From: Helianthus annuus
Lineage: Eukaryota; Streptophyta; Magnoliopsida; Asterales; Asteraceae
Direction: 5' to 3'
Assembly (NCBI RefSeq): GCF_002127325.2
Contig: NC_035437.2
Location: 157,367,597-157,431,596 of the forward strand
Length of the DNA: 64,000 bases
Made by a program: the position numbers and the translations under genes
In this document: positions 17,802 to 42,581 of the stretch, one piece after another
How positions within the stretch are numbered: position 1 is the stretch's first letter
Layout: each line of letters starts with the position of its first letter
Notes under the pieces: model-generated
The model's database searches: none
Told to the model about the DNA's origin: nothing
The model's input: only the letters and a program-made list of their open reading frames with translations

Positions 17802-17810
17802 GTAGTCTTT

Positions 17811-18290
17811 GAATTTTTTGCATAAATAAGTGGTTTGAACCACAAAAGAGTGTTATTAGGTGGGTAAAAGTTATGTTTTAACAATTAGGTAGGTTGTGAA
17901 ACGAAACTGCGACCTTCAGTAAGTTTTCTGCACAAAATCAGACTTTCTGCAAAAAGCTGCAACAAATGTTTAAGATCGCTGATTGATACAGCGACCTTTT
18001 GAAGGTCGCTGTTTGAACTACCAACCTTTAAGAAGGTCGCTGTTTGAAGTACCAACCTTTAAGAAGGTCGCAGTTTCATGTACCAAGCTTTATGAAGGTC
18101 GCAGTTTGGTGTCACAAGCTTTGTGAAGGTCGCTGTTTCAACTACCAAGCTTTATGAAGGTTGCAGTTTGGTGTCACAATGTTATTAAAGGTCGCATATT
18201 CATGTTACGATGTTATTAAAGGTCGCAGAATCATATAGCAAGCTTATTGAAGATCGCAATATGGTGTCACAATCTTTGTAAATAACGACA
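17811..18290 (+). repeat. Left TIR of the MULE with 31-bp minisatellite
   Basis: The outer 120 bp is unique and matches the right TIR almost base for base. Further in comes a palindrome with arms CAGCGACCTT and AAGGTCGCTG near 17987-18011. After it are nine direct units of about 31 bp carrying AAGGTCGC(T/A)GTTT, pointing inward. Confidence 0.9.
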
Positions 18291-18630
18291 AACTTTGCAG
18301 AATTTATGCAGCTTTCGTTTGGTAGTGTAATAGGTGCCTGTTTGAGGTTTTTGTCCATTTGCTGCATGAAATTTGAGTGGTAAATGTGAAGGTGATATGA
18401 CTTGACCCTAGCTCTCACATGACCTGCTAATTTGAATAGTTGTGTGTAAGAGAATCCAACTGTAGTGTAAGAAAAACACTGGCTTTCACCATGAATTCGA
18501 AAAATGAGGCACAGATTGAAGTATTTACATATGAACATAAAGCAAAGCAGTTGAGATACATTTTCAATATCAAAGAAAGCTTCAATCCTTTCATTAACGA
18601 AAAAATTCAGTCAAGTTTTATCAACCGAAG
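18291..18630. promoter_or_regulatory. Region between left TIR and PMD gene
   Basis: Short chance frames only. It must hold the promoter and leader of the PMD gene, but no convincing TATA box was identified. Confidence 0.3.
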
Positions 18631-20929
18631 ATGAATTTTGAATGTCATCCTGGTCCGATGAATGCGTCGGTGTTGTTATTGGGCAACAATCACTGTGCGT
18701 TTGAGGTGTTTAAAAATCCAACAGCGTATGATCAGCCATTAGATGTTAGACGATCAGATCGAACGTTCTGGCAATATATGAAAGAAAATCCGGTTAGTGG
18801 AAGGGTAGAAGGTTTAATACATGCAGCAGGATTCAGTCGGGATACTGCAAGTTGGGTACAAGTATGTTGACCACGCGTTAATAACTGCGTTGGTTGAGAG
18901 ATGGAGGCCAGAAGCTCACACGTTTCACCTTCCTTTTGGAGAAACGACCGTGACATTACAGGATGTCAACGTGTTGTGGGGGCTACCGATAGATGGGTTG
19001 CCTATTTCTGGGGCTGACACTGGTATGTCGATGTATACTGTACGAGACAAGTGTCAAACGGTGTTGGGGTTTACCCCTGACGAAGCTCATGTGAAGGGCA
19101 AAAGGGTTAGGTCCTCCCGAGTTTTAGCACAAATAACGTCATCCAATTTTTCTGAAAATGAAGCATCAGATGAAGATTGCATTTTTCGTGCACGTCAAAT
19201 AATATTTTATTTGATAGGGTGCACAATCTTTCCTGATAATGCAAACAACCTGATTGATGTCAAATTTTTAGAATTTCTGGTAGACTTGCCCGCATGTTCG
19301 GGATATAGTTGGGGCGGTGCTGTGTTAGCTCACCTTTACAAAAACCTTTGTAATGCTACAGCACCTAATGCTATAGCCATTACTGGCCCAGTTGCGCTTC
19401 TACAAGTGTGGGCTTGGGAGAGGATTCGTTGTTTTGCTCCTGCTGTTGCCCGGTTCCAGTACAATGCCCCGTTAGCTGCTCGGTAGTGTGAATTGGAACT
19501 AATTAAATTTATTATTTTGTATATATATTCCTGACTTATGTTATTTTTTTATTTATCCTTTTAGGTGGAAGGGAAGCTTAACGTGTACAGATGTTTCCAC
19601 ACATTGCCTGAGAACATATAGATCTCAGCTGCAATCAATGACCGAGGCAACGGTATGGATGTTAGTTGTTGACATATAAATTTAAATTTGTTTGAACACG
19701 TTTCTAATGAATGAATTTTTTTTGTTGCAGTTTAATTGGAGACCATACGACATTGTCGGTAGACTCCCCGATATATGTCGTAGTGGTATGGGAATTTGGC
19801 GGAGTTGTTGCCCTTTGCTATGCTACTCGGTTGTGGAGCATCACTATCCTCAACGAGTGATGAGACAGTTTGGCATGTTCCAGTACATACCTAACCCAAT
19901 TGCCATAGATCATAATGAGCATGCCAGACTTCATTCCATGAACCGGAGTGGGAAAACCGGCTGGAACTGGTTAAGTCGTCACGCACCGTATGTTAGTCAG
20001 TGGGAGGCACGTCATCAAAACTTGGTGACTGGGGAACTCATGACATCTGTTGGAGTTGCCAATGATTACATGTCGTGGTACATGCAACATACGGTGTTAT
20101 ATGTGTCTAACCCACAATTGTCAGCTGGCCCTACGAGCGGTTTTCAAGACGAAGGAGCGAGGGTCCAAATGATGGTATATACAAGTTTAAAATTATTGAA
20201 AGTTACCTTTTTTATTTTTAGTAAAAAATTAATTATTAATTATTTTTTTGCAGTCGGAGACGATGGGTCTAATTCACCGATCTGAAGATGTGGACGTTAT
20301 TCATGGTGCGGCGTATCGGGCCCTTGAGATGTCTAATGTTCCACAATACACACAATATCCGACTCATCTGTCACAGGAGCCGGTGGACCTTGTTTCATAT
20401 CCTCGTACACAGAGGGTAGGCAGGCCCCGACGTCGTGCTCGTGGTGGTAGAAACGTTGAAGAGGCCGAGACCTCAAATTGGGGCCCAAACTTCGAAACAG
20501 GGGGGATCAGGATCCGGTGGTAACGAAGATGTAAATTTTGCGGTAAACCTTGGTAATACTGATATGGGTGTATCATGGGAGTCAGCGTTGGCTACGGCAT
20601 GCTCCGAGGGTTTTGACGTCGGTGAGTTATTGAACCCCCAACAGAATGATATGGGTAACAACAATCAGTTTGTAGACCCAAACATAAGTCAGGCGGGGTT
20701 TTTTAGCCCCTCGTCCCATATGATGGACCCCAACACTAGTCTGGCAGGGTTTGTTACCCCCGCGTCACAGATGATAACATTTATGCCGGATACCCAAACA
20801 GACTATCAGTATTGGCCCCCAAACCAAAGTAACGAAGATCACCGGAACCGTTATGCAGATGTTGAACCAAACTCCTTAGAATGGAGTCTCGACTTGAACC
20901 TGTTTCCACCACCACCGAATGACCCATAG
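18631..20929 (+). pseudogene. Plant mobile domain (PMD, MAIN-like) gene of the MULE, two frameshifts
   Basis: The inferred exons are 18631-19482, 19565-19652, 19731-20174 and 20254-20929, all with GT..AG introns. The protein shows the PMD signature: a variant of AGF-GVLxxGYKYVDHALITA, then ALVERWRPEAHTFHLPFGE, TLQDVNVLWGLPIDG, and WGGAVLAHLYKNL. Later come FNWRPYDIV and a Pro/Ser/Asn-rich tail ending LDLNLFPPPP. PMD proteins include host factors MAIN and MAIL1, which act in transposon silencing and gene expression, and many transposon-borne copies. A 1-nt shift near 18838 breaks the PMD, and another in the G6 run at 20500-20505 breaks the tail. Without these it would be a near full-length protein. 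The LDLNL tail resembles an EAR repression motif. Confidence 0.85.
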
Positions 20930-21200
20930 AGTGTAATACTTTGTGAAATAAATATATTGTGTAATACATTGTGAAATAAATATATTGTGGTTTTTGTTTT
21001 TTTTTTGTTATTTGTGCAATATATTTTATTATTATTTTATTTTTCAAAGTAAACTGATACTAAAAAAACACATAAACTAACACAATAATGATATATTTAT
21101 ATTTGTTTATCATTAAGGGTATAAAGGACATTTCACAATGTTAAAGTAATAAGCATTTTTCTCAAAAAGAAAAAGTATTTTTAAATCAATTTCCACCCAC

Positions 21201-21208
21201 TATAAATA
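21201..21208 (+). promoter_or_regulatory. TATA box of Ulp1-like gene 1
   Basis: TATAAATA lies 47 bp before the ATG at 21256. The same CTATAAATACC context precedes orphan gene 2 at about 25240, suggesting shared promoter design within the MULE. Confidence 0.55.
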
Positions 21209-21255
21209 CCCCTACCATAGTGAATGAGAAGTCCACAAAAACCACAACCACCTTT

Positions 21256-22318
21256 ATGGCTAACCAAGGTGACAATCAAGTAGCTGATGAGCAAAACAAT
21301 AAGCAAGTGGTCCAGAGAAAGTCATTTTCGATTCTAAACAAGTTAAGACGTCCAACCGGTGGTTCTAGCACTTCGTCTTTTCCAAAGCCGACCGAGGTCG
21401 TGCTAAATAACCGTGGGTCGTCCGCTTAGTCGAGTAAACCTGGTGCCAGCCCTCCAGAAAGAAAAAATTTTGCATTTCCAACCGAAAATTCCGAAAATTG
21501 GTCAAGGGTTGCTGTTGAGTTTTAGCTAAACGGGGATTCCCCTTTTTGTTATTCTAGCTTTTTAGGGGAAATACAGCTACCTAGAAGCTTTTGGGGTAGC
21601 CTACTAGGCTACGAATCTAGTGCATGCCTAAATGACATTGTAAACCCAATCCTTCCAGTATTAAATTTTGATTATACAAATCACTGATTAGATATATATT
21701 TTGTTTATGGCAGCATGTTCAAGCGTGGACGTTAAGGCTGATGCGGCTTCGACAATCTAAACTTTTAAAAGACCCGTCAAGGAAATTGCGTTGGACGGTT
21801 TTACCTCCGCAATTTTATGAAGACGTGTGTTATACGAAGGATTGTTTAAGAGCGGTAGACATGGCGGGAAAGAAGGAACCGTACCCTCCATTTTGGGAGG
21901 TTGATTATTTGTATATTCCGATATGGATTAAGCAGGAGGACTGGTTACTATTCCGTGTTGATATGTTTAACATGGAAATAACACAATATTGGACTGATAA
22001 AAGATGGGGAAACGAAAAAAGACGGCTGGTTGAACACGTGATGGACATTTTCCAATTTTCTTCAAGCATTTTCTTGACCAAATCCACTATTGGCGAAACT
22101 CGAGATACTGCACAAAGAAAAAAGTTTCTTTTGGTTATGTTCAAGACGGTGTGCCTCAGGACAATGGTAAGATTGCTAATTCAGGGGTGCTTGTCTGTAT
22201 GATGATGGACAACCTTGTAAGAGGCAAGTCGCTCATTGATGAAACTGACGTAGAAGAGAGTTGTACCAACTACCGTCGCCACATGGCTAACGAGCTTTAT
22301 AGATGGCGTTGTATGTAG
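21256..22318 (+). pseudogene. Ulp1/C48-like gene 1 of the MULE, broken
   Basis: The exons are about 21256-21639 and 21714-22318. It aligns throughout with Ulp1-like gene 2: FCYSSFLG against FCYSGFLG, SFWGSLLGYE against EFWGALLGYE, RWTVLPPQF against PWTILPPQF, PYPPFWEVD against HYPPFWDID, and SGVLVCMMM against SGVLVCMLL. Two in-frame TAG codons lie in exon 1 (at about 21427 and 21522; the second replaces a Tyr in gene 2). A frameshift falls in the A-rich tract near 22110-22120. Where active Ulp1 proteases have HW and DCG, this copy has DW and NSG. It is therefore both broken and, in its ancestral form, probably not a protease. It lacks the intron that gene 2 has at IDT/VYIPI. Confidence 0.75.
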
Positions 22319-22424
22319 GATGAATGTTTTTCTTGTTTATGAATATGAATTGTGCTTTCGTACTTTCTTTATAATAAACAATTTAATGTATTGTCATATT
22401 CCGACATATTAGGCTTTTTGTCAG

Positions 22425-23305
22425 AAAGGGCCAACCTTGCGTTTTCTGGGTCTGTTATCTCACCGGTGCGTCGAAGTTCGCCATCATCGGGTTTCTTCGT
22501 GTCGTATGCTAGGGTGAACAAGGACTTGGGGAATTGGCGTTGTCTCGCCAGAGGTCGTATCCTCTCGTTTTGAGGGGGGGGAAACGGCCAAAAAGCCATT
22601 TTTGACTTTTTTGACAAAAAGGGCCAACCTTGCGTTTTCTGGGTCTGTTATCTCACCGGTGCGTCGCAGTTCGCCATCACCGGGTTTCTTCGTGTCGTAT
22701 GCTAGGGTGAATAAGGACTTGGGGCATTGGCGTTGTCTCGCCAGAGGTCGTATCCTCTCGTTATGAGGGGGGAAAACGGCCAAAAAGCCATTTTTGACTT
22801 TTTGACAAAAAGGGCCAACCTTGCGTTTTCTGGGTCTGTTATCTCACCGGTGCGTCGCAGTTCGCCATCACCGGGTTTCTTCGTGTCGTATGCTAGGGTG
22901 AATACGGACTTGGGGAATTGGCGTTGTCTCGCCAGAGGTCGTATCCTCTCGTTATGAGGGGGGAAAACGGCCAAAAAGCCATTTTTGACTTTTTGACAAA
23001 AAGGGCCAACCTTGCGTTTTCTGGGTCTGTTATCTCACCGGTGCGTCGCAGTTCGCCACAACCGGTTTCTTCGTGTCGTATGGTAGGGTGAATAAGGACA
23101 TGAGGCATTAGCGTTGTCTCGCCAGAGGTCGTATCCTCTCGTTATGAAGGGGGGGGGGACGGCTAAAAAGCCATTTTTGACTTTTTGACAAAAAAAGTCG
23201 AAATTGATATTTAATAATTTAATACAAGTACGATAAACAATTACACGTTTTATTAAGGACTTGGGGGCATTAGCGTTGTCTCGCCAGAGGTCGTTTCCTC
23301 TCGTC
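22425..23305. repeat. 191-bp tandem satellite between the two Ulp1-like genes
   Basis: CCAACCTTGCG recurs at 22431, 22624, 22815 and 23006, giving periods of 193, 191 and 191 bp. There are about four near-identical units plus a partial one, then an isolated repeat tail near 23255-23305 next to Ulp1-like gene 2. The tail contains CTCGCCAGAGGTCGT, shared by every unit, so the unit probably grew from the 3' flank of that gene. The frames through the array are by-products of the repeats. Confidence 0.9.
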
Positions 23306-23311
23306 TGTATT

Positions 23312-24287
23312 TCACGCAAGCCTCCACAACATCTCCCCCAATCCAGACGTCCTGTCATTAACCAGTTTACTTAACAACATACAAACCAACACCCCTGAAT
23401 CTGGTCCTGGGTTTTCCTTTTGATGTTGGTAAACTTCAGTATGTGTCACCATTGTGTTTTCCACATGTGGGCGTCCAGAATGTTCCCAGTATGCCATTTT
23501 TGGAAAAAATGTTTTGAATAACGATTCAAATTTTATTATGGTTGGGTATACCCTAACTTGAATCAAGCTTGACCCATCAGAAACACTTGAAGTACATGTC
23601 CCAGTAAAATACAAAGTAAGGTGAAGTGTCCGCATATCAACACGAACCATGAACCAGTCTTGAAGGTCAACACAGATTGGAATATAAACCTGAGAAAAAA
23701 ATAAATAAGATAAACGTATTTGGTTTAAGATATACAGTGGGGGATGATAGTGTTACCGTATCGATGTCCCAAAATGGAGGGTAATGTTCCTTTAATCCAA
23801 TAGCAAAAGGTAACGCACGATGGTTAGGATTCTCTTCCAAAAGGTGGAGAAATTGAGGTGGGAGAATCGTCCATGGAAACAGTTGTTCTGGTTTTTTGGA
23901 TTTTTTTATTAAAATCCATCTGAACCTCATCATTCTCGTCACCCACCCACACACATGCTACAACGGTGAAAGTTTTATAACATAAGAATAAAACTAAATT
24001 TTCGGAGCGTTTTAATAATTTATACTCCTTACCAGTGGCGACAAGTAACCGTAGTTCTCGTATCCAAGTAGGGCACCCCAAAACTCGGACCCCAATTGTC
24101 TCCTTCCAAGGAATCCGCTATAACAGAAAGCAGAATCTCCGTTATGATAAAACGCCATTACATTTTTTGACCACGATCTAGACTCTTCTGTTGGGTAATA
24201 ATACCAGCGTGTCTTTCTGGGGATCTTCTCAGGGGGGGTATCAGGGACTTCCTCCAGCTCCAATAACGAGTCTTCCGGGTCCCCCAT
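23312..24287 (-). CDS. Ulp1/C48-like gene 2 of the MULE, intact but catalytic residues replaced
   Basis: Three exons on the minus strand (24287-24033, 23957-23757, 23689-23312) with GT..AG introns join into an unbroken 277-aa frame. The N-terminus is acidic (MGDPEDSLLELEEVPDTPPE). The middle has WTILPPQF and PPFWDIDTVYIP. The C-terminal third resembles the catalytic core of Ulp1/C48 deSUMOylating proteases, but His-Trp is replaced by Asp-Trp (LQDWFMVRVDM) and the catalytic DCG by DSG (GPDSGVLVCML). Ulp1-like genes are known passengers of plant MULEs. If the alignment holds, this would bind rather than cleave SUMO or another partner. The C-terminus ends abruptly, next to the 191-bp satellite. 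Confidence 0.75.
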
Positions 24288-24325
24288 TTGTTGTGTGTCG
24301 TTGGTGCAATTCGAGATGGGGGTAT

Positions 24326-24560
24326 GAGTGACTATTTATCCAGAGATGTTATACTAGGTCGCTGTTTCATTCAGAGATGTTATACTAGGTCGCTGTTTCA
24401 TACAGAGATGTTATACTAGGTCGCTGTTTCATACAGAGATGTTATACTAGGTCGCTGTTTCATTCAGAGATGTTATACTAGGTCGCTGTTTCATACAGAG
24501 ATGTTATACTAGGTCGCTGTTTCATTCAGAGATGTTATACTAGGTCGCTGTTTCATCTAT
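24326..24560. promoter_or_regulatory. Bidirectional promoter with seven 31-bp repeats
   Basis: Between the divergent Ulp1-like gene 2 (minus) and orphan gene 1 (plus), the unit AGAGATGTTATACTAGG + TCGCTGTTTCATAC repeats about seven times at an exact 31-bp period from 24340 to 24553. A TATA-like GATAAATAG faces left near 24333, and CTATAAAAGG faces right at 24553. The AGGTCGCTGTTTCAT core and the period match the arrays in both MULE TIRs. Confidence 0.85.
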
Positions 24561-24617
24561 AAAAGGCCCTCCATTGGTACACCTCATCACTCTTCTTTGC
24601 AATACCATTTCGTAGTA

Positions 24618-25076
24618 ATGGATAAGCGCAATGTTGGCAAACGGTTACCTCCTTTCTCCCACTTTCAAAACAATTGCTTAACTGAAGAAGACATGAAAGC
24701 TATTTTGGAATGGGAACTACCCCCAAAGGTTACTGTTCTGGAGGAAGGAAAGAAATCAACAAAATCGGAACCTGTGGAGGAAGGAGGATCGTCTTCCAGT
24801 GCAGTTGTGAATAAGCAACTGGCGAAACAGAAGGACGTTCGTGGAAGAAATAAAGAGGTTGAAGAAATCCCCGTTGTTAAAAAAGTTTGGACCTATGACA
24901 ATCAACAGTTTGATTTCAACCCTAACCCGGAGGAGGATTACGACCCAGAAGTCCTGAAGGAAGCTTGGAACTATGAGGAAGAAGAAGAAGACTGGTCCTG
25001 TGTTTGGCACAACCCATATTCTGGAGAAGAGTCAGACTCGGAACTATCATCTAGAGGTGACTGCCATTGGAAATAG
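24618..25076 (+). CDS. MULE orphan gene 1, acidic protein
   Basis: A single-exon frame of 152 aa starting MDKRNVGKRLPPF. An in-frame ATG at 24597 is too close to the TATA box at 24553 to be likely. The protein has a basic start, a Ser-rich middle (GGSSSSA) and a strongly acidic end with WNYEEEEEDW and SGEESDSELSS. I recognise no domain. It lies head to head with Ulp1-like gene 2 across the 31-bp repeat promoter and is followed by orphan gene 2 in the same direction. An uninterrupted frame with its own TATA box suggests a real gene. An acidic tail could serve DNA-binding or activation roles, but that is speculation. Confidence 0.6.
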   Translation: MDKRNVGKRLPPFSHFQNNCLTEEDMKAILEWELPPKVTVLEEGKKSTKSEPVEEGGSSSSAVVNKQLAKQKDVRGRNKEVEEIPVVKKVWTYDNQQFDFNPNPEEDYDPEVLKEAWNYEEEEEDWSCVWHNPYSGEESDSELSSRGDCHWK

Positions 25077-25303
25077 GGTTGCTCCGTTTCTATCATGATG
25101 TTTGTTGTAGTGGAGTTTACTTGAAAGTTTTTTGTCCTTTTTCTATCTCTTTAGTGGAAGAAGGTTATTGTACTTTATTGTATCAGTAATTTATTGTACT
25201 AGTATTATAATAACTACCCACCCCTATACTTCTCCTGTCTATAAATACCACCTATCACCCAAATATGTCTTCACACCTTTACCTCACCACACTAGTTATT
25301 CCG

Positions 25304-25843
25304 ATGGCAGATGGTGATAACGAATTACACATTCATTTTCATTTGCATATACATGAAGGGGAGCCAAACCCTGCAAATGTTGAACGACAACCAAACCGTA
25401 ACTCTGTTCAGCCACAACCGAACCGTAACACTGCTCATCCACAACCCAACGTTAACTCTGTTCAACCACAACCCAACCGTAACTTTCTTGCACCCCAAAC
25501 CAACAATAACCATATTGGTCGACAACCAAACCATAACAGTGTGCTCCCCTCCACTGAACACCTGCATGCCCCTCCCAGACCTTCACCCCTCAACCAACAT
25601 CCTCGCCCACCACCATATGTTGAACATCCAAATCCTTGGATTGTGCAGAACCCTAACACTGCATCGCCAAGGGTTATAGATCCATACCCGATATGTAGGT
25701 TTGGATGCATCTACCATAGCATGTGCTACCACCAATACGACAGTGATCGTGACTCTAATGCGTTATCAGATGATGCCGTCGTTAGTGATGATCCATGGGA
25801 ACAATATCACAACTTTGACAGCGACTCTGATACATCCTTTTGA
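25304..25843 (+). CDS. MULE orphan gene 2, Asn/Pro/Gln repeat protein with acidic tail
   Basis: A 179-aa frame starting MADGDNELHIHFHLHIHEGE. An ATG at 25265 lies at or before the expected transcription start, since a TATA box (CTATAAATACC) sits at about 25240. It contains four to five degenerate 11-12-residue repeats of the type QPNRNSVQPQPNRN, a proline-rich middle, a Cys-containing segment (CRFGCIYHSMCYHQY) and an Asp/Ser-rich end (DSDSDTSF). No known domain. The last coding segment (CAGATGATGCCGTCGTTAG) is duplicated just past the stop at about 25848. It is convergent with the transposase gene. Confidence 0.55.
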   Translation: MADGDNELHIHFHLHIHEGEPNPANVERQPNRNSVQPQPNRNTAHPQPNVNSVQPQPNRNFLAPQTNNNHIGRQPNHNSVLPSTEHLHAPPRPSPLNQHPRPPPYVEHPNPWIVQNPNTASPRVIDPYPICRFGCIYHSMCYHQYDSDRDSNALSDDAVVSDDPWEQYHNFDSDSDTSF

Positions 25844-26137
25844 TTCCAGATGATGCCGTCGTTAGTGACTTAGGGGTTCCTGTATTGGTAGATGTATTGT
25901 GTGTTCGTGAATTCTCCTAAATTAAAATAAACCATGTAATGTACTTTGATGTTTTTATTTTGTGTTTTGTGTTTGTGAATTTTCTTAAATTAATAGTCGT
26001 AAAAACTCATTTTTTTGGAACACATGTCTTAATTGTTAAATTACACCACCAATTGACAATTCAAACAGAAATACCAAACACAAAACATAGGAGGATACAC
26101 CTAACAGTTAACATTAAAACCACAAAAAGATACTAAC
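25844..26137. other. Convergent 3' region of orphan gene 2 and transposase
   Basis: AT-rich, with AATAAA-like sequence near 25925 on the plus strand (TTAAAATAAACC). No gene. Confidence 0.4.
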
Positions 26138-26565
26138 TTAACGTCGGCCACAGGTCTTCCTGTTGTGCCCGGTTTCTCCGCATCTGCTGCATCGACATGC
26201 CTGGGGTTCATCGTGGTAGTTAACGTCCATCTCGTTTTGAATTCTTCTTGAACGAACCCTGCCACGATGTGTTGTGACCCTCGAAGGGTCCCCTTGAATT
26301 GTCCAGTCCGCTTCTTCCCACTCATCTTTGTGTCCCAGGGTGAAAAAATGACCGCTATACTGTTCCTGATAGGTGGTGGTGTGGAATATGGAGTGGGTAA
26401 CGTCATGTGGTTGCTCACCCCTCCAAGCGCAAACTGCGATAGCATGGGAACAAGGGAATCTAAGCATTTGCCATTTCCCGCATGAGCACCGGCTGCGTCC
26501 GTATTCAACGGTGTACTCGTTTCCACCGTCATCATTGGTTTCTTCCCTTGAAACCACCGCGTAAC

Positions 26566-28901: not shown

Positions 28902-29003
28902 TTATCCCCAAGTTTTAAGAACTTTCGTCCCGAAAGTTAAGGCAGTCACTGTCAAGCTAGTATAAGTGAGAATGTTTCAACGGGGTGTCACATCATCCCC
29001 CCG

Positions 29004-32000
29004 TTAGTTTGGAATTTCGTCCCGAAATTCGGTTGTAGCTTCAGTGCTGGGGTTTTCGTTTGGGAACAACTGGGGATACTTGTGCTTCATCTGGTCTTCC
29101 CGCTCCCAGGTAAACTCTGGGCCACGTCGCGAGTTCCAACGGACTCGTACAAGAGGTATCTGGCTACGTTTGAGGATTTTGATCTCTCGATCCGTGATCT
29201 CAATCGGTTCCTTAGTAAAGTGTAGCTGTTCATCAATAGTTAGTTCCTTGAAAGGAATTACGAGCGTTTCATCTGATAGACACTTCTTCAGATTAGATAC
29301 GTGAAATACGTTGTGTACCGCACTCAGTTCTTCAGGCAAGTTCAATCTATAAGCCACCTTACCAATTTTCTCGGTAATTTTGAATGGTCCGATATATCGC
29401 GGATTAAGCTTGCCCCGTTTACCAAAGCGAACCACACCCTTCCAGGGTGAGACTTTAAGCAGAACCCGGTCACCGACCTGGAATTCTAGTGGTTTCCTAC
29501 GCTTATCAGCGTAACTCTTCTGACGGTCACGAGCTGCCGCCATGCGTTGTCTGATCTGGGCAATCTTTTCCGTTGTATCTACCACCATCTCTGGGCCCGT
29601 GATTTGACTATCACCGATTTCCGCCCAGCAGAGAGGTGACCGGCATTTACGACCGTACAATGCCTCAAAAGGTGCTGCCTGAATACTAGTGTGGTAGCTG
29701 TTGTTGTAGGAGAATTCCACTAGCGGTAGATGCTTCTCCCAATTCTTGCCAAAATCGATCACACATGCTCTAAGCATGTCTTATAGGGTTTGGATGGTGC
29801 GTTCGGACTGTCCATCCGTTTGCGGGTGATAAGCGGTGCTCATGTCCAAACGTGAGCCAAAGGATTTGTGCATAGCTTGCCACAATTCCGAAGTAAAACG
29901 AGCGTCTCGGTCGGAAATAATTGAGGTTGGCACCCCGTGCCTCGAAACTACTTCCTTTAAGTAAATCTCCGCCAAGGTAGAAAACTTGTCTGTTTCCTTA
30001 ATAGCCAAAAAGTGTGCGGACTTGGTCAATCGATCTACTATTACCCAGATGGTGTCATTTCCACGTTGAGATCTAGGTAGCCCTGTAACAAAATCCATGG
30101 AAATTTGCTCCCATTTCCATTTCGGGATTTCTGGCTGTTGGAGTAGGCCTGCTGGCTTCTGGTACTCTGTCTTGACTCTTGCGCAAGTCAAACATTTGCT
30201 GACGTATGTTGTTATGTGGGCCTTCATGCCAGGCCACCAATATGTAGTCCTCAAGTCGTGGTACATCTTGTCCGAACCAGGATGTACTGGGTAACGGGAC
30301 TTGTGGGCTTCGTCCATCACGAGTTCACGTAAATCTCCATAGAGTGGAACCCAAATGCGCCCTGTTACATAGTAAGCGCCATCTTCCTTCTGTTCTAATC
30401 GCTGTCTCGATCCTCGCAGAGACTCAGCCCTGATGTTTTCCGGTTTCAATGCTTCGACTTGAGCATTGCGGATCTGGGTAGGGAGGTTAGACTGGATGGT
30501 AAGTTGCAATGCTCGCACGCGCTTTGGTATAGTGTCCTTTCGGCTGAGGGCATCTGCCACGACATTGGCCTTGCCCGGATGGTACTTGATGGCGCATTCG
30601 TAGTCATTCAAGAGTTCGACCCATCGGCGTTGTCGCATGTTCAACTCCTTTTGCCTAAAGATATGCTCGAGACTCCTGTGATCGGTGTAGATAGTGCACT
30701 TGGTACCGTACAGGTAATGTCTCCATATCTTAAGAGCAAAGATCACTGCTCCCAGTTCCAAGTCATGTGTAGTGTTGTTTCTCTCATGCGTCTTTAAGTT
30801 GTCGAGAAGCGTAGGCAATAACTTTCTCGCGTTGCATCAACACGCAACCGAGCCCATGGATAGACGCATCACAGTAAACCACAAAGTCGTCAGTGCCTTC
30901 AGGCAGCGAGAGAATAGGAGCGCTACAGAGGTTATCCTTTAGTCTTTGAAAGGCCGACTCCTGAGCTTCATTCCACTTGTACACAATGCCTTTCTGAGTA
31001 AGGGTCGTGAGGGGTTGAGCAATCTTTGAGAATCCTTTGATGAATCTGCGGTAGTATCCTGCTAATCCCAAGAATTGGCGAACTTCGGTTGGGGTCTTGG
31101 GCGTAGGCCAATTCTTTATCGAGTCGATCTTAGCGGGGTCGACGTGAATCCCGTCCTTATTGACCACATGCCCAAGAAACTGGACCTCTCGAAGCCAAAA
31201 GTCACACTTCGAGAATTTGGCGTACAATTGCTCATTGCGTAAGAGTTCGAGGATAAGGCGTAGGTGTCGTTCATGCTCTTCTTGACTTTTCGAGTAGATC
31301 AGGATGTCGTCGATAAACACAATCACGAATTTGTCGAGGTAAGGCTTGCACACTCGGTTCATGAGATCCATGAAAACCGCAGGTGCGTTAGTCATTCCAA
31401 AAGGCATGACGAGGAACTCGTAATGACCATAACGAGTCCTGAACGCAGTCTTAGAGATGTCTTCATTACGAACTCTCAGCTGATGATAGCCTGATCGCAG
31501 GTCAATCTTAGAGTAGTAGCTCGATCCTTGCAACTGATCGAATAGGTCGTCGATGCGCGGGAGAGGGTAACGATTCTTGATGGTAACCTTGTTCAGCTCA
31601 CGATAGTCGATGCACATTCGGAACGTGCCATCCTTCTTCTTAACAAAGAGTACTGGTGCTCCCTAGGGTGATGAACTAGGACGGATAAATCCTTTATCCA
31701 ATAGTTCCTGTAGTTGCGTAGAGAGTTCCTTCAGTTCTGCAGGGGCTAGACGATAAGGCGCACGAGCTATGGGTGCTGCTCCGGGAGCTAGCTCGATTTG
31801 GAATTCGACCTGACGGTGGGGAGGGAGTCCAGGTAGTTCCTCGGGAAACACCTCGGGGTAGTCACGTACTACAGGAAAATCTTCAATCCTCTTTTCCTTT
31901 TCGAGGGTGTCGGTGACCAGTGCTAGAATAGCGGTGTGCCCTTTTTGTAAACACTTCTGGGCTTTTAAAAGCGAGATAATGTCTGTGACTTCTCCACCTT

Positions 32001-33629
32001 TGTTGCCTTGAACGATGAGGGGTTGGCCAGAACGACGAGGAATACGAACCGCTTTCTCTTGACAGAGGATCTCAGCACGATGTTTGGATAACCAATCCAT
32101 GCCGATGACGACGTCGAAGCTTCCAAGTTTGACAGGGAAAAGATCGATACTAAACGTGTGACCAGACAATTCTAGTGTGCAGTCGTGGATCACGTGCGAG
32201 GCCTCAATGTTCCTACCATTGGCTATCTCGACGACGTGCTTAGAACTTAATAACGCAGGCGGGTGCTTAAGTTTCTTACTAATGCGAAGGGATACATAAC
32301 TGGCATCGGCACCGGAATCAAATAACACAGAAACGTAACGATCATCAAGTAGGAACTTACCCGCCACGACGTTGGGGTCGTTCCTTGCTTCTCCAGCTCC
32401 AATCACAAAAGCTCTTCCCCTTTCACAATTCCCAGCATTGTTGTTTTGCTCATTGTTCCCAGCTCCCTGGTTGTTGTTGCGATTCTGATTCAGTTCAGGG
32501 CAATCCTTTCGCATGTGCCTTGTTGCCCCGCATTTAAAACATCCGCGGTTGTTTCCCTGCTGCTGTTGCTGTTGAGGTTGTTGCTGATTCTGCCTTGCTG
32601 GGAACTGACTTCTACAATCCTTAGCTTCATGCCCCATCTTGTTGCACCGCTGGCACTGACCTTTGTTACATGCCCCATTGTGGTGCCTGTTACACTTGTT
32701 GCACTTAGGGTAGCTTCCCCGGTAGCCACCCTGTTGCTGAGTGCCTTTGTTGTTCTCAGTTTTCCTTTGCTGGGCTGGGGCTTGAGTGGAGTTAGCATCC
32801 TTGCCCTGATTTCCATCCCACTTTCGTTTGCCATCACTAGAAGTTCCTTCCGCAGCACTGATCCTTTTGGGCAACCTGCCCTCCTCCACAGCCTGGTTGG
32901 TGAGTTTGTGGGCAAGACGCACCACAGGCTGTATGGTAGTGAGGTTGGCCGAGGTCACATGGCTCCTGATTTCTGGGGCTAAGCCTTTGATGTACAATTC
33001 GATCCTTCGATACATGGGTCGGGACATGGTTGGGCAAAGTGCAGCATAGTCGTTGGACAGCTTGGTGTAGGTCTCAATCTCTGACCCAACCATCTTGAGA
33101 CCATAGTACTCGTCTTCGAGTTTGTGGATGTCATCCCTGTGACAATACTCTTCCTTGATCATATCCTTGAAATCTTCCCATGCAGTAGCATTAGCGGTCT
33201 CCAAACCAAGCATTTAAATTTGCGCCTTCCACCACGAAAGCGCGCTTCCCTCAAGGGTACCAGTAGCAAACTTCACCCAATTAGCAGGGGGACACTCACA
33301 TACAGCGAAAACAGCTTCGACCTTCTCGATCCAGTGCAGAAGACCTATGGCACCCTCAGTGCCATTGAATGGAAGAGGCTTGCAATCCATGAAGGTCTTG
33401 AAAGTACAAACACGTGGTTGCACAGGCGCATGCTGACCTGTTGTGAGAGTGATACGAATGGGTTTAGAGGTGACAAGACGATGCGATGGTAGGATCTACA
33501 CATCCTAAAATAACGAGTTTTACCTCCAGGGTGAGCTGCGAAAGCTGCAGCCACCGTGTTGATCAGGTTAGTGAACTGAGCCTGAGTCATGTTGACGTTT
33601 CCTCGTCCGCGTCCACTCATTGTCTTCAT
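29004..33629 (-). pseudogene. gag-pol of the gypsy chromovirus, inactivated
   Basis: The domain order on the minus strand is as follows. Gag starts MSGRGRGNVNMTQAQF near 33620, with zinc knuckles CQRCNKMGHEAKDC and CFKCGATRHMRKDC. The protease has VLFDSGADASYV. Reverse transcriptase runs from [20 protein letters not shown] to [10 protein letters not shown]. RNase H has [11 protein letters not shown]. Integrase has an HHCC region and [10 protein letters not shown]. The C-terminal chromodomain region has [17 protein letters not shown]. The chromodomain and this Gag type place it in the Tekay-like chromoviruses. Nonsense codons lie at about 33214, 31662 and 29780, with frameshifts near 33430-33520 and 30795. 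It cannot make a full polyprotein. Confidence 0.9.
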
Positions 33630-33893
33630 AACCAGAAAACATAGTATGAGTGTGGTGTCATAACATAGCGAGAATGAGATAGAAGAGGGGAGGCGTATCT
33701 ATCTAATTGGGCAACCTAGTACGTATAGTAGAGCAGAAAGCATAAGACAATCAAGCAAGTAAACATGGGTTCGAGCTATGAGGTCAGATAGGTCGAGCCT
33801 TGCACTTGGAGTGTAGTGTCGTCACGAGTCACGGGTTATAGTCTGGTTTTTCTCAAAAGATTTTTCCCCTTTTTAAAACCAAGTTCACTATAA

Positions 33894-33911
33894 CCAATGG
33901 CTCTGATACCA
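33894..33911 (-). other. Primer-binding site of the gypsy element
   Basis: The minus strand reads TGGTATCAGAGCCATTGG. The first 12 bases are complementary to the 3' end of initiator tRNA-Met, the usual primer of this group. It directly follows the 16-bp LTR stub, not the full 5' LTR. Confidence 0.85.
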
Positions 33912-33930
33912 ATCTGTCACACCCCCAAAT

Positions 33931-34358
33931 TTAACGTCGGCCACAGGTCTTCCTGTTGTGCCCGGTTTCTCCGCATCTGCTGCATCGACATGCCTGGGGT
34001 TCATCGTGGTAGTTAACGTCCATCTCGTTTTGAATTCTTCTTGAACGAACCCTGCCACGATGGGTTGTGACCCTCGAAGGGTCCCCTTGAATTGTCCAGT
34101 CCGCTTCTTCCCACTCATCTTTGTGTCCCAGGGTGAAATAATGACCGCTATACTGTTCCTGATAGGTGGTGGTGTGGAATATGGAGTGGGTAACGTCATG
34201 TGGTTGCTCACCCCTCCAAGCGCAAACTGCGATAGCATGGGAACAAGGGAATCTAAGCATTTGCCATTTCCCGCATGAGCACCGGCTGCGTCCGTATTCA
34301 ACGGTGTACTCGTTTCCACCGTCATCATTGGTTTCTTCCCTTGAAACCACCGCGTAAC
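33931..34358 (-). pseudogene. Duplicate of the MULE transposase SWIM end inside the retrotransposon
   Basis: Nearly identical (two differences noticed) to 26138-26565, including the GTTAC target-duplication copy next to the LTR, the SWIM finger CSCGKWQMLRFPCSHAIAV and the terminal zinc knuckle. It stops exactly at the TAA of the transposase, then joins ATTTGGGGGTGTGACA, the last bases of an LTR, and the primer-binding site. It has no promoter or catalytic core. Confidence 0.9.
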
Positions 34359-36677
34359 TGTCACACCCCCAAATTCCACCTGCGGAGTGACATCCGCTTG
34401 AGGGCGTGACTGACCAGGATCCAGCCACCAATTATACTAAGCATTTGTTAATAGTAAGATAATTGCTATCCAAAGTAGTTAGCAACATCGTAGTTTAAGT
34501 TCGATAATTAGTTTAAACAAAAACAGCGGAAGCATAAACCAAAAAGATAGTTTAAAGTTCAAGATAATTAAAACCCAACACACGGGTTTTGACGAACACT
34601 ACACATTCCCAAGCAGCAGCTCCTCAGTCACTGGTTACCTGCAAAGCATGCAGTAAGGTGTCAACAATAATGCTGAGTGAGTTCACTAGTTGTCCAGTTT
34701 TAATTACCAAAAACTTGTTTCACCAGTTAATTTACTCGTTTATACATGCCATGGGGAGCTACCCCAAAAGTTAGCGACTAAACTGTTTTTCCAATACCGA
34801 ACACTAGGTAACCGTTTGCGTTTCCGCAGGATGCCCCGATGTCAATGTTCTATCATCATTGACGGATGCCTGAGTACATTAGTTCACGACCGATCCCAAA
34901 CCATGGCACGGTGTGAGGTTGGTAAAACCTAAATAGCGCTATCAACTAATAACCCGTTCGCCTGGCCCCGGCGACTAATCGGTATTATGTAGTAGGGACT
35001 TGAGTGATAGAGTTTCGTTTAGTGCCGTTAGTTGCAATCCGTATAAACAGTAATTAACTAAAGGTTCCCAATAACAAGGGAAGAAAGTAAGTTGTATCCC
35101 TCATAAGGGGGATAGTGTTGTTTGTAGTTCCGTTTCCCAAACCACCGGGAACGCATGCTTTAGGTTGTGAACTCACCTTGGGTTGCTCGGTAGATTAAAT
35201 ACCCGGTCAATCACGTTGGTCACCACGTCCTAGCATGGTTACCAGATATAGGTCAAGTTGGGGTACAAGTAATCACGTATAGACACACTTAACATGCATG
35301 CATTCTAACAGTTGGGTTATTGGGCCTGCTCTAACATTTTCACAAACAGTAACAGATATACATGCAATCCAGTCAACAGATAGTCCAACAAGCCTTTGGC
35401 CCAATAACACTTAGGCAGCCCAGTCGAGACAAGGGCGGTTTCGACTCGAGAATGCACGGTTTCGAGTCGCAACCAAGGGTTCCGACTCGCAACCTCGGTC
35501 TCGGTTCATCATGCTTTGTCTCGAGTCGCAACCAGGGATTCCGACTCGCAACCTCGGTTTCGGTTCATCATGTGCTGCTTGCGAGTCGCAACCGGGAGAT
35601 CTCGACGAATCACGTTTTGGTCTCGAGTCGCAACCAAGGGTTCCGACTCGCAACCACTGTTACGTGCACCTGAATCCTTCTAGAACCTGTCCTATGTACT
35701 AGCCAATGAAATTCTGTTTTTGTGTGATTGTGTACTATCCAACCATATTGCACCAACATGTTTTCTTGTCTAACACATAGTAAAATCGGATCAAAACAAG
35801 CATTTTCAAATATTTTCAATGACATTCATGTTGTTCTTCACGTGTTCATCCCACTTTTAAACACATAATCACAAGGTTCTTCATATGAAATATCAGGATC
35901 AAAGACCACACATTTATCACAAATCATCATAACCTAATCGGACATAATTGGTATCATTATTAGGTTCCTAAATCTAGCATGTTTCATAATAAACAAGAAC
36001 CCATAAGATCAAGAAATCGAGCATATCATACGGTCAAAACATCATCAAAGTAACAACACACGGTTCGACTCCTAACTAGCTAAAACGTGTTCATCATCAT
36101 CATTAGTGACATTTCTAAGTTAAAAACATGGCAACACTTATCATCATACTTCAAGGATCATAGCAAACACCTAAAAAAAACACTAACCGGTTGATGTTGT
36201 GGGTGCGAAGGATCAAAGGTTCCACTTCCGAGTGATGGTTCCGAGTAGAAATCCGGGAGTCTTGATGCTACGGTTGGATCCGAGAGAGATGAGAGGGTGA
36301 GGAGGTAATCTTGGTTTGCTAGGGTTTTAGGGTTTTAGTGAGAGGTAGAGAGTGTGAGAGTTGAGAGAGTAAAATGAATGAGAGTGTAAAGGAGAGTGTG
36401 GTGGGGGTTTTGGGTTTTATATCTCAAGGTGTGCACTAATGGGCTTTCGGGTGGACCAAGGGGGGTTGCGGCCCAACCGGTGTGGGTTACTCGAGACTAG
36501 GTGGTCTCGAGTCGGGTCTTGCGGTTTCGGCTCACTAGTAATATACACCTATATATATATATATAACGTACATACATACAACACATAATCACAGAAAATC
36601 CATAGTTTCCATTTAATAATATATGTACACGCAAAGTTACATCAAGAAGGTTTCCCGGGAAAATCCGAAGTGTCACA
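34359..36677 (-). repeat. 5' LTR of the gypsy element
   Basis: The near-identical partner of 26566-28901. On its right it abuts the GTAAC target copy and the transposase reading frame (GRY codons). Confidence 0.92.
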
Positions 36678-38820
36678 GTAACGACCTTCTCTGACATCGT
36701 AGACGGACACTTCATGTTGCATGGCTACGGAATGCAACTTGTTAAACCTGGACCAAATTCGAGGGGGTAGAGGGGTATTGCAGCTTTGGGCCATCTGCGC
36801 GTGGCGAGCATACTCTGATACGTCCTTGGTGAACGTATAATGAATTAAGGCTTTTACTGGCAGGAGTCTTGCTTCCTGTAAGACATTATTCATAGACTCA
36901 GATATGTTCGTCGTAAGGTTACCCCAACGACGGTTTCCGCGGTCATGAACAATAGTCCACTTGCTTTTGTCGATGTCGTTCAGGTAGTTCCAAGCACCCT
37001 GATTTAACATCTGCATTTCCCTCACAGCCCAAAGATACTTTCTTCGTTGACTTGTGCTCCCGATCATCCAACACAGCTTCCTAAGAGATTTGGTCTTGAA
37101 CCTACCACTAAAATTGCTTCTGACATGCCGAAGACAATAACGGTGGTAGGCGTTTGGTTCCCTCCAATCCAGAAGGTTCTCCATCGCATTAATTATCCCG
37201 GCATGACGGTCTGATAGAACACAAATTCTACTGTTACAGTCTTTGGTGACGTATTCTCTCAAATTTTGGAAAAACCAACACCAACTATAAACCGTCTCTT
37301 CGTCAACTAGCGCGTACGCCACTGGCATTATGTAGTTGTTGGCGTTTTTGGTTACCGCAACCAACAACTTACCACGGTACCCTCCTTTCAAGTGTGTGCC
37401 GTCCACAGAGATGACAGGTTGGCAAAGATGAAACACGCGAATAGAAGGACCAAATGCCCAAAAAAACATATTTGAATGTTGGAAGTCTTGGAGCCGAGTG
37501 CGGGTGATGAAACCATGAAACCACCGTACCAGGGTTTCGAGACTGAAGCCGTAACACATACTTTGGCAGCTCCTGAAAGTTGCTTTCCCAGGTTCCATAT
37601 ATCCTCTCAATTGCCTTTCTTCGTCCACGCCACGCCTTCGTATACGTAACATCGACAGACATCGCTTGCTTTATATGCGTCCTGATGTGTTTCACCTTCA
37701 ACGCAATGTCTGTACGAATTTGTGGCAGGATGTGTGCAGCGATATCCTTAGATCTAAGGCACCTGTTGTTGTTGCGTACCACCGTGGAATAACAAGTGTG
37801 GGCAGGCGCCCAGTTGGTAATTTGCCAAAGGTGTTGGTGTTTCTGTTTTGATGCCGTTGCACGCCATTCACACAAAGGAGCATGAGGGAAAGGGTTGTTA
37901 AAATTTTTGTTTCTCGTGTAGCATTTAACTTTGTATAAAGTTGGTTTGCTATCCATCACAAAAATTTCCCTTCCATGACGAATGTTCCATTCTCGGATAG
38001 CAAGGTCCACCTCCTGTTTTGACTTGAAATACATGCCGAGACGTATATGTTTTACTTTTGGATTCCATACGTCCATCGGATTATCTTCATAATCCGGACA
38101 CATGTAATCCCTAAGTTCCTCGTCCTCGTCTGGGTCGTCATGTGTCGCTGGAATGATAGGCCGCGGCTGAGCCAGGGTCAACTCAGTGTGTTGGTTTACT
38201 CCAGCCTCGTCGTCAGAAGTACCATCGTCGGATGGTGGTGCCTCTTCACTTTCAGAACTCTCTTCGGTGCTGCAACTTTCCGAATCATCAAAACCGTCAT
38301 TATTGTTGTCACCCACCAGAAACTGGGAGGACGGACCTACTATGTTATCAACAGCAGGCATCAAGTGGTGTTCTTGAGTTGTTTGCCCGTATCCCTCGTC
38401 ATCTTCATCAGAATCTTGGGTGTTAACAACATTACGTTGTGTAATGTCATGCAGAAGGTTTGTGAAACTCATGTGTTGGACTGGATTGACTGCCTCCCAC
38501 TGAACATAGATCTTGGCAATGAATTTGCCATCCGATACTTCGGCTAAATAGTTCATTGTTTCAATACCATCATCGTTGAAAATTTTTGTTGTCTGAGATA
38601 TGCCCTGAAACGTGTACCCTAGTAACAATGAAAGGCGCACCGATTCTTTCTGTAGTTGAACATAATTACAGATTGAATCCACCAATTGGTCATACGACGA
38701 TTTATGTCACATAAGGAAAGAGGTTGTTAGCATGGATTGGTCAAACTGAACAGCCCCGTTAACAAAGGAAAACACACCGCCCCAATATAGTCTTACGAGG
38801 TATGGCCGAAAAGAATCCAT

Positions 38821-39300
38821 GAACTAAGAAAGTGAAATGTTAAGAAATGTTAAGGATGAGTGGGTTGTGTAAGCTGGATTTCGTTTGTTAAGAAATGTTA
38901 AGGATGAGTGGGTTGTGTAGTGGGTTGAGAACCTAATACAACCAGTATTTATTGTCTTGGAGTAACAAGATAGTTGGTGGAGCCCACCATCTTCTGGATG
39001 AATATACATATAATAATATTTTTTAAATATTCAAAAAAGTAAAAATGGTAGTTCTCTTAAAACAACTTTAAATACATTGAATTGGTTATTTGTTTCAACT
39101 AACCAGTTAGTCGGATTTTATTATTCGTTTGAAGTGTTGGTTCTAATTTTGTTTTTTCAACCATCATTGAAATTAGGGTTACAACAAGGCATGATACAAC
39201 ACAAAATTTAAAAAGGTTATTTATTTGGTAATTCAACAAGATTACAACATTACAGTAAGATCTATCAAACTCGCAAATTACATAAATGTAGTACTATTTT
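38821..39300. promoter_or_regulatory. Upstream region of the MULE transposase
   Basis: A 46-bp direct duplication containing GTTAAGAAATGTTAAGGATG (about 38836-38925) lies just upstream of the ATG. A TATA-like CAATAAATACTGG faces left near 38945-38957. The rest is AT-rich and non-coding. Confidence 0.4.
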
Positions 39301-39308
39301 AATTACAT

Positions 39309-39440
39309 ACAGGCAGAAACACAATGTTCATTTCGTAGTATTTTAACAAATCATTTCTAATTGCAAGACTGTTTGTCAGGCAGAAATACAATGTTCACTG
39401 CGTACTATTTTAACAAATCATTTCTAATTGCAAGACTGTT
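39309..39440. repeat. 66-bp direct duplication
   Basis: A block beginning AGGCAGAAA(C/T)ACAATGTTCA and ending GCAAGACTGTTTGTC occurs twice in tandem. Confidence 0.8.
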
Positions 39441-39880
39441 TGTCGGGCTTCCAATTAGAGGTAAAATACAGTGAATCCCGTCCCATTTCTTCTTATATCG
39501 AGCTTCCTGATGCAACTTTTTATGCGAAGGAAATGAGAGGTCGAAGGTTAAGAGTGCTGGAGGATCTGCATGGGGCTGATTCCCCCACCAAAACTGGCAG
39601 AATAATTTACAGGAGGAGGCGGTAGATGACAAATACCTCAGCGTCTGCTAGGTCTTTCATAAGACTCAATAGCAGACGCTGACGCAACCACACCAGCAAA
39701 TTTCATTATCTTCGTACACCTTACGGGAGGAGATGGTAGATGAGAATAATCTTTCTCCTCCACACAAGATCTTCCCACTTGATATACGAAAATTAAAACT
39801 GAGAAAAACATCATGACGAGTGATCCAAGAGAATCATCATACATTGACAAATTTTTTCTATCTTTAGAAATATCAACCAA
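39405..39880 (-). other. Possible remnant gene near the right TIR
   Basis: Two adjacent minus-strand frames, 39880-39638 (80 aa, with a hydrophobic stretch LVMMFFSVLIFVYQVG) and 39632-39405 (75 aa). Both contain a related SHLPSPPV / CHLPPPPV DNA block, so part of the region is duplicated. No domain is recognised, and a broken or multi-exon MULE passenger is possible. Low confidence that it is expressed. Confidence 0.25.
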
Positions 39881-40032
39881 CGAACATTTTTAATAAAATA
39901 CAGAGACACAATTTAAATTCAACATTAAATTTTTTTTAACAAACACAGTATTACGAATTTGGTGTGCATCTCTTATGTGTAGTTGGGTTTTAAAACATAT
40001 AAATTTCAAATTTCAGAACACATATCAACATT

Positions 40033-40493
40033 GCAATATCATTCTGCGATCTTCATTAACTTTGTAGTATGAAACAACAACCTTTATTAAGCTTGCAATA
40101 TCATTCTGCGACCTTTATTAACTTGTAGTTTGAAACTGCGACCTTCAATAAGATTGTGATATGATTCTGCGACTTTAAATAAGATTGGTACATGAAAAAG
40201 CGACCTTCAATAACATTGGTACATGATTCTGCGACCTTCACTAAGGTTGGTACATGATTCAGCGACCTTCTATAAGATTGGTACTTCAAACAGCGACCTT
40301 CAGAAGGTCGCTGTATTAATCTGCAACCTTCAAACATGTTGGACAGCTTTTGCAGTACTTGACAGCTTTTGCAGAAAACCTTCATGAACGTCGCTGTATG
40401 GAACCACAATCTACCTAATTGTGAAAACATAACTTTTACCCACCTAATAACACTCTTTTGTGGTTCAAACCACTTATTTATGCAAAAAAATTC
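40033..40493 (-). repeat. Right TIR of the MULE with 31-bp minisatellite
   Basis: Read inward on the minus strand it repeats the left TIR: GAATTTTTTTGCATAAATAAG, the unique outer segment, then a palindrome with arms CAGCGACCTT and AAGGTCGCTG at 40292-40314. About nine 31-bp units with AAGGTCGC(T/A)G(A/T)(A/T)TCATGTACCAA follow. Confidence 0.9.
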
Positions 40494-40502
40494 GTAGTCT
40501 TT

Positions 40503-42581
<2,079 letters not shown>

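Follow-up and report, generated by a model that had tools for sequence, protein, structure and literature searches.

The DNA analysed here, hereafter the window, is a 64,000-nucleotide stretch of the Helianthus annuus genome (C5:157367597-157431596) that contains a Mutator-like element (MULE) at positions 17811-40493. The element is flanked by an exact, unstranded 9-bp target site duplication (TSD), GTAGTCTTT, at 17802-17810 and 40494-40502. Its left terminal inverted repeat (TIR; 17811-18276, + strand) begins GAATTTTTTGCATAA, and its inner portion is an array of 31-bp units with an AGGTCGC core (17972-18276). The right TIR (40027-40493, - strand) contains a 31-bp array at 40031-40302. The two TIRs are identical at 361 of 467 aligned columns (77%), and their outer 60 bp are near-perfect. 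The exact target duplications, the inverted ends of about 470 bp and the minisatellite TIRs described in the initial annotation are all borne out by these coordinates. Its term "giant" had to be abandoned, as 10.1 of the 22.7 kb belong to a later, nested Ty3/Gypsy retrotransposon, and the native MULE measures 12,566 bp.

Six genes lie within the element. The plant mobile domain (PMD) gene (18631-20926, + strand) has four exons, delimited by eye (18631-19482, 19565-19652, 19731-20174 and 20254-20926). It is followed by two Ulp1-like genes, ULP1 (21256-22315, + strand) with two exons and ULP2 (23315-24287, - strand) with three, again delimited by eye. The gap between them holds 4.1 copies of an unstranded 191-bp tandem repeat (22414-23194), which sibling elements also have. 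The open reading frames ORF-A (24618-25076, + strand) and ORF-B (25304-25843, + strand) encode an acidic orphan protein of 152 amino acids and an orphan protein of 179 amino acids with an acidic C-terminus, respectively. The transposase gene lies on the - strand: one part of its exon (36683-38706) encodes the N-terminal portion and the MULE domain, and the rest of that exon (26138-26565), encoding the SWIM domain and a zinc knuckle, was severed from it by the Gypsy insertion.

The domain assignments confirm the transposase and PMD genes of the initial annotation. The window PMD protein matches PF10536 with an E-value of 6.2e-52 (177.3 bits against a curated cutoff of 34.9), and the transposase matches PF10551 (E 3.4e-21) and the SWIM domain (E 9.6e-9). 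The element therefore combines a transposase domain, a SWIM domain, a 9-bp TSD and long TIRs, by which MULEs are recognised. The transposase motifs VDGTHL, LSDRHAG and NISES, noticed by eye, presumably correspond to the DDE triad. Neither ORF-A nor ORF-B has a Pfam match at E<=1, in keeping with their description as orphans, and the two window ULP genes score 13.9 and 16.9 bits, under the Pfam cutoff of 20.7. The window copy is decayed: the PMD frame is broken, ULP1 has two stops and a frame break, ULP2 is shifted in frame near its end, and the transposase is frameshifted in the longer part of its exon besides being interrupted. The end of the PMD gene (20870-20926) reads SLDLNLFPPPPNDP, the C13b sibling reads LELNL, and the frame entering this end varies among copies at a G run. 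We take the SLDLNLFPPPPNDP end to resemble an EAR repressor motif (DLNxxP).

Sibling elements and a second family

A search of the genome (3.01 Gb, 334 contigs) with the left TIR yielded at least 44 matches (best 40 of 255 candidates scored). Fourteen elements were read at both ends, namely the window copy, 12 from the TIR list and one, C16r, reached via ORF-A. With end shifts of up to 3 bases allowed, 13 of them have a perfect 9-bp TSD, and in the other the two copies agree at 8 of 9 bp. In nine of the 14, all six genes are present and follow the same order and orientation (PMD+, ULP1+, ULP2-, ORF-A+, ORF-B+, transposase-); of the other five, three are internal-deletion forms and two are gene-less, with lengths of 1.3 and 1.7 kb. 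For each of the six genes, one copy or more has an open frame, and a transposase frame of at least 854 codons without a stop was found in 11 of 100 matches (best 95 of 1188 candidates scored). The C16r element (L035+L036, C16:26044500-26060500) is 12.75 kb long, with TIRs 88.6% identical over 413 bp and a transposase reading frame of 855 codons. Four other loci (C7:137091659, C10:50888338, C11:13680663 and C12:63974426) share the ORF-A score of its match at C16:26052454, a hint that there was a recent burst.

The linkage of the genes extends genome-wide. The 139 ORF-A matches fall into 116 loci and the 124 ORF-B matches into 95, and ORF-A lies within 10 kb at 70 of the 95 ORF-B loci, against 0.07 expected under random placement. 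Reciprocally, ORF-B lies within 10 kb at 67 of the 116 ORF-A loci; only two of the other 49 are full-length matches at 79% identity or above. Among the first 46 ORF-A matches, 42 have ORF-B on the same strand within 1.5 kb. At 37 TIR loci, ORF-A was found within 25 kb at 27 and ORF-B at 29. Within 30 kb of the first 50 transposase matches, including that of the window, PMD is present at no fewer than 41, ULP2 at 38 or more, ORF-A at 39 or more and ORF-B at 42 or more; all four accompany at least 32 of them, and none accompanies four or fewer. These transposase counts are lower bounds, since they used 81 of 150 PMD, 66 of 150 ULP2, 65 of 139 ORF-A and 63 of 124 ORF-B matches. The initial annotation had proposed that the transposase, the PMD gene, the two Ulp1-like genes and the two orphans moved as one unit, and had asked for the same cargo between the same TIRs with 9-bp TSDs elsewhere; the nine complete elements display this arrangement, and the linkage agrees with it.

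A second, diverged family is represented by C14d (C14:165786500-165801500), an 8.0-kb element with an exact TSD, AGTTCAAAG, whose ends begin GAGTTTTTTGC and whose TIRs are unlike those of the window. It carries PMD, the C-terminal part of the transposase, ORF-B, one ULP gene and ORF-A in a rearranged order, and is itself a deletion form, because the N-terminal part of the transposase is missing. Another member of this family, C16d, is missing its left part in the sequence read. The proteins of C14d and of the window family are identical at 44% of positions for PMD, 43% for the transposase (135 codons), about 30% for SWIM, 63% for ULP2, 60% for ORF-A and 62% for ORF-B. Between the families, the ratio of nonsynonymous to synonymous substitution (dN/dS), calculated by the Nei-Gojobori method as point ratios without a significance test, is 0.29 for ULP2 (dS 0.97), 0.26 for ORF-A (dS 1.12), 0.52 for ORF-B (dS 0.54), 0.15 for PMD and 0.20 for the transposase, dS being saturated in the last two. 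These ratios indicate that the five gene types are kept under purifying selection between the two families. The view that the genes are residents and not random captures thus holds, given the shared set and order at many loci and its retention in the diverged C14d, and we regard the structure of the element and the residency of its six genes as near certain.

The maize element MuDR is likewise a TIR MULE with a 9-bp TSD and MULE and SWIM domains; it has two genes, mudrA and mudrB, whereas the present family has six genes and satellite arrays. More distant relatives of ORF-A, 54-56% identical, occur at L034 (C8:21587500-21597400) and L031+L032 (C5:143286000-143300600). They adjoin a MULE transposase of just 26-31% identity, and no PMD or ORF-B match was found at either locus. 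At L034 there is, in addition, a 35-bp array containing CGGTCGCAGTTTG, similar to the TIR unit of the window.

Motif arrays at termini and promoters

The initial annotation overlooked a third array, at 24341-24556 (+ strand), which consists of seven 31-bp copies with the core AGGTCGCTGTTTCAT and shares AGGTCGC at a 31-bp period with the TIR arrays. It is located in the divergent promoter of ULP2 and ORF-A, between TATA-like boxes recognised by eye. The native element contains 23 occurrences of AGGTCGC, against 0.59 expected and a maximum of three in 200 Markov shuffles; 16 are terminal, seven lie in the internal promoter and none occurs in the other 8.8 kb of element sequence. A single AGGTCGC at 40503-40509, directly beyond the right TSD, may be due to chance or may be a trace of an older element.

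Array length differs between copies, and the core itself has changed in two gene-less short forms, L027 (C17:175205600-175208000) and L028 (C7:139018090-139019970). In these, the array core is AGGTCTC, which has lost the CpG, and it has been altered in concert in the four (L027) and six (L028) copies of the left TIR. The outer palindrome still reads AGGTCGC, and each TIR retains two AGGTCGC. Both forms have 9-bp TSDs despite the altered core, so the full AGGTCGC array is dispensable for movement.

The same layout recurs with other cores. In C14d, AATGGCG occurs 16 times terminally, twice in the ORF-B/ULP2 divergent promoter and not at all in 5.7 kb elsewhere. AGGTCGC is absent from C14d, and AATGGCGA is absent from the window element. 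A third family is represented by C5u (C5:156662500-156677500), 15 kb read around one of the ULP2 relatives of 28-34% identity that make up the lower part of the match list (best 150 of 507 candidates scored); its match score equals that of ten others, a likeness in score. C5u encodes a MULE transposase (8e-20), a DUF1985 protein (E 4.6e-16), an Ulp1 domain with DCG (4e-5), two more Ulp1-like genes that lack DCG, and a short acidic open reading frame that resembles ORF-B by eye; PMD and ORF-A gave no tblastn match in it at E<=1e-3. Here AAACGGC occurs nine times just upstream of the transposase and ten times in the divergent promoter that precedes the DUF1985 gene, with no occurrence in the other 8.4 kb. 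The three families thus share a layout and differ in their cores, AGGTCGC (window), AATGGCG (C14d) and AAACGGC (C5u). As far as sequence goes, this layout is a VANDAL/VANC-like architecture within a TIR MULE, and the arrays are quite probably cis targets of an element-encoded factor.

A putative system against silencing

VANC of the Arabidopsis VANDALs has DUF1985 and DUF287; VANC21 binds YAGTATTAY, VANC6 targets bear AGTTGTCC or AGTTGTAC, and these short target motifs lie in tandem repeats of non-coding parts (Hosaka 2017, PMC5735166). The window family resembles the VANDALs in being a multi-gene MULE with short, family-specific tandem motifs, terminal and non-coding, that switch between related families (PMC5735166). 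VANDALs have degenerate TIRs and a VANC with DUF1985 and DUF287, whereas here long satellite TIRs enclose a PMD gene, two non-catalytic Ulp1-like genes and two orphans. All three cores described above contain CpG, whereas the VANC motifs quoted in PMC5735166 have none.

The earliest description of the PMD concerned a rice MULE (Ikeda 2017, PMC5418596). Certain MULEs of grasses and Amborella, like the present family, carry a plant mobile domain, and an anti-silencing use has been proposed for it; there PMD-C is fused to the transposase (PMC5418596), whereas here the PMD gene is separate, at the opposite end and on the opposite strand. In the host, the PMD-C proteins MAIN and MAIL1 function in silencing and together with PP7L (PMC7156037, PMC8616336), and they control genes with the DOWN motif, their direct binding being unknown (PMC9899485). 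Among the papers listed, mostly outside the subscription literature, none describes in its title or the opening of its abstract a TIR MULE that combines a separate PMD gene with paired Ulp1-like genes and with motif arrays.

We propose, with a probability of about 0.6, that the window element is a decayed member of a multicopy TIR Mutator-like family with six resident genes, one of whose products would read the family's motif to counter silencing. This element-encoded DNA-binding protein would recognise the family's own motif and keep the termini and the ULP2/ORF-A promoter unsilenced, with the outcome that only its own family would be mobilised, a private lock-and-key against plant silencing. 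Anti-silencing as the effect of motif reading is what we infer by analogy with VANC and MURA. The initial annotation had offered counter-silencing on the strength of the PMD name; the idea is now better grounded, because the arrays are located at the termini and at one internal promoter, and the motif differs per family. The PMD protein may be the reader, in the role held by the DUF1985 protein VANC, because C5u has a DUF1985 protein where PMD was not found and because PMD and DUF1985 share a weak similarity; we give this assignment slightly less than an even chance. The Ulp1-like proteins might serve as non-catalytic partners, perhaps, speculatively, by binding SUMO-modified silencing factors. 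More tentatively, and well below even odds, the family may represent a second, PMD-based class of sequence-specific anti-silencing, in which PMD would replace the DUF1985 protein of VANC and read a private CpG motif, located at both ends of a TIR MULE and in one internal divergent promoter, with two non-catalytic Ulp1-derived partners; motif and reader would switch as a pair between families, and the remaining genes would be retained.

The main alternative for the factor that reads the arrays is the transposase, which we consider the less likely candidate. The arrays would then be transposase binding sites, as for MURA in MuDR; the transposase would cut the ends and relieve silencing, the internal array would be autoregulatory, and PMD and the other proteins would help otherwise. 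The presence of arrays within both TIRs fits this somewhat improbable reading, as does the reported hypomethylation of TIRs by MURA (PMC10398659), and the divergence of the transposase between families equals that of PMD. However, the gene-less forms, with two AGGTCGC per TIR and an AGGTCTC core, still have 9-bp TSDs, and cutting has no need of an array in an internal promoter. Another possibility, an unlikely one, would be that PMD imitates or perturbs the MAIN/MAIL1/PP7L silencing complex of the host without any DNA motif, the arrays again serving the transposase. The part played by the host proteins in silencing (PMC7156037, PMC8616336) speaks for it, but it leaves the array at the internal promoter, and its change together with the TIR motif, unexplained.

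It is very unlikely that the arrays are passive, functionless satellites homogenised by slippage and unequal exchange. Their variable length between copies and the concerted core change in the short forms would be expected of such satellites, whereas the occurrence of the same core at three separate places per family, with none between, and the repetition of the layout in three families with unrelated cores would not. Finally, a Pack-MULE with unrelated captured host genes might be suggested by the frequent capture of genes by MULEs (PMC13317346) and by the existence of deletion derivatives. We rejected this explanation, to which we assign a negligible probability, because the same set is found at tens of loci and the five gene types are kept in C14d with dN/dS ratios of 0.15-0.52.

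Several observations weigh against the proposal that an element protein, PMD in particular, reads the motif. Because PMD and the transposase have diverged between families to a like extent, the data favour neither of them as its reader. The window PMD protein scores 17 bits against DUF1985, where the cutoff is 35.1, and is in this respect not a VANC-type DUF1985 protein; PMD and DUF1985 resemble each other weakly (E 0.006-0.023, hhalign probability 14%), and C14d PMD shows no DUF1985 similarity. The C14d internal promoter has just two AATGGCG and lacks AAATGGC, the commonest terminal 7-mer, the sibling C7 has one AGGTCGC beyond its arrays, and two related motif sites in C5u, at 191 and 432, lie outside the part counted. 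The ends and TIRs of C5u were not found, there being no inverted repeat in the 15 kb. None of the eight full copies examined has all six genes open, and C16r is frame-broken too, so autonomy at present is not supported. Within the window family, where pooled dS is 0.010-0.039, pooled dN/dS is 0.95 for ULP1, near 1, and 1.75 for ORF-B. The other genes give 0.70 (PMD), 0.55 (ULP2), 0.69 (ORF-A), 0.64 (transposase) and 0.34 (SWIM); we read the higher within-family ratios as the drift of dead copies after insertion, but ORF-B displays no constraint within the family.

The biochemistry of PMD proteins is a puzzle in plants: some of these proteins are encoded by transposons, and others, MAIN and MAIL1, take part in host silencing. 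A PMD gene that travels with some twenty copies of a motif, and has motif-switched relatives, makes DNA reading by PMD directly testable. If the proposal is true, a second sequence-specific anti-silencing system would stand alongside VANC.

Ulp1-like genes, the nested retrotransposon and neighbouring features

ULP1 and ULP2 are paralogues, 39-40% identical. Active Ulp1 proteases are not supported, as Ser replaces the catalytic Cys in both. When a profile of both was compared by hhalign with the Ulp1 domain of C5u that bears DCG, the match (E 5.8e-8, probability 94.7%) supported homology to C48 and placed Ser at the position of the catalytic Cys; the site reads NSG or DSG in all six aligned sequences and in four distant relatives, so the change is old. 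The catalytic His also appears to be lost (DW for HW), if the HW motif is as we assume. Pfam C48 matches four of the six sequences (best E 1.5e-4), and neither ULP2 nor the ULP alignment matched any PDB sequence. An AlphaFold model of ULP1 exon 2 had a mean pLDDT of 48.8 and was not used further. Since its between-family dN/dS is 0.29, ULP2 may have a role other than proteolysis, and the pair suggests that plant MULEs may carry Ulp1-related genes that do not encode proteases. Ulp1-related genes are also present in Kaonashi (KIU) and further Ulp1-bearing MULEs (PMC13317346, PMC2528002), whereas here the Ulp1-like proteins are paired and without the catalytic Cys; C5u, which has DUF1985 and an Ulp1 domain with DCG, seems nearer to KIU and the VANDALs than the window family is. 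At C11:185147315-185155969 (G000), five equal-scoring matches to ULP2 exon 3 are spaced about 2,075 bp apart, and ULP2 seems to have been captured there into a tandem satellite.

The Ty3/Gypsy element (26566-36677, - strand) is foreign to the MULE. It is flanked by the target duplication GTAAC (26561-26565 and 36678-36682), and its insertion site is uninterrupted in nine sibling elements. Its long terminal repeats (LTRs; 26566-28901 and 34359-36677) are 2.3 kb long, begin TGTGACACTT and end GGGGGTGTGACA, with the primer site TGGTATCAGAGCC next, and protease, reverse transcriptase, RNase H and integrase domains lie between them. Self-comparison of the window revealed a 2.77-kb direct repeat (26135-28904 and 33928-36680; 99.06% identity, 9 mismatches and 17 gap columns). 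It is longer than the LTR because 431 bp of the transposase exon beside the 3' LTR are also present between the 5' LTR and the primer site (33928-34358, - strand). This copy of the SWIM exon is identical to 26135-26565 at 428 of 431 positions, and only the last bases of an LTR follow it. It is best read as the product of a template switch or of conversion running beyond the LTR; that the SWIM domain is a genuine part of the LTR was rejected, as the copy repeats the MULE sequence adjoining the 3' LTR.

Outside the element, the self-comparison also disclosed an inverted pair of about 1 kb, 79% identical, at 12803-13861 and 44835-45863, and the product of an open reading frame at 44233-44781 resembles a PIF/Harbinger-type transposase.

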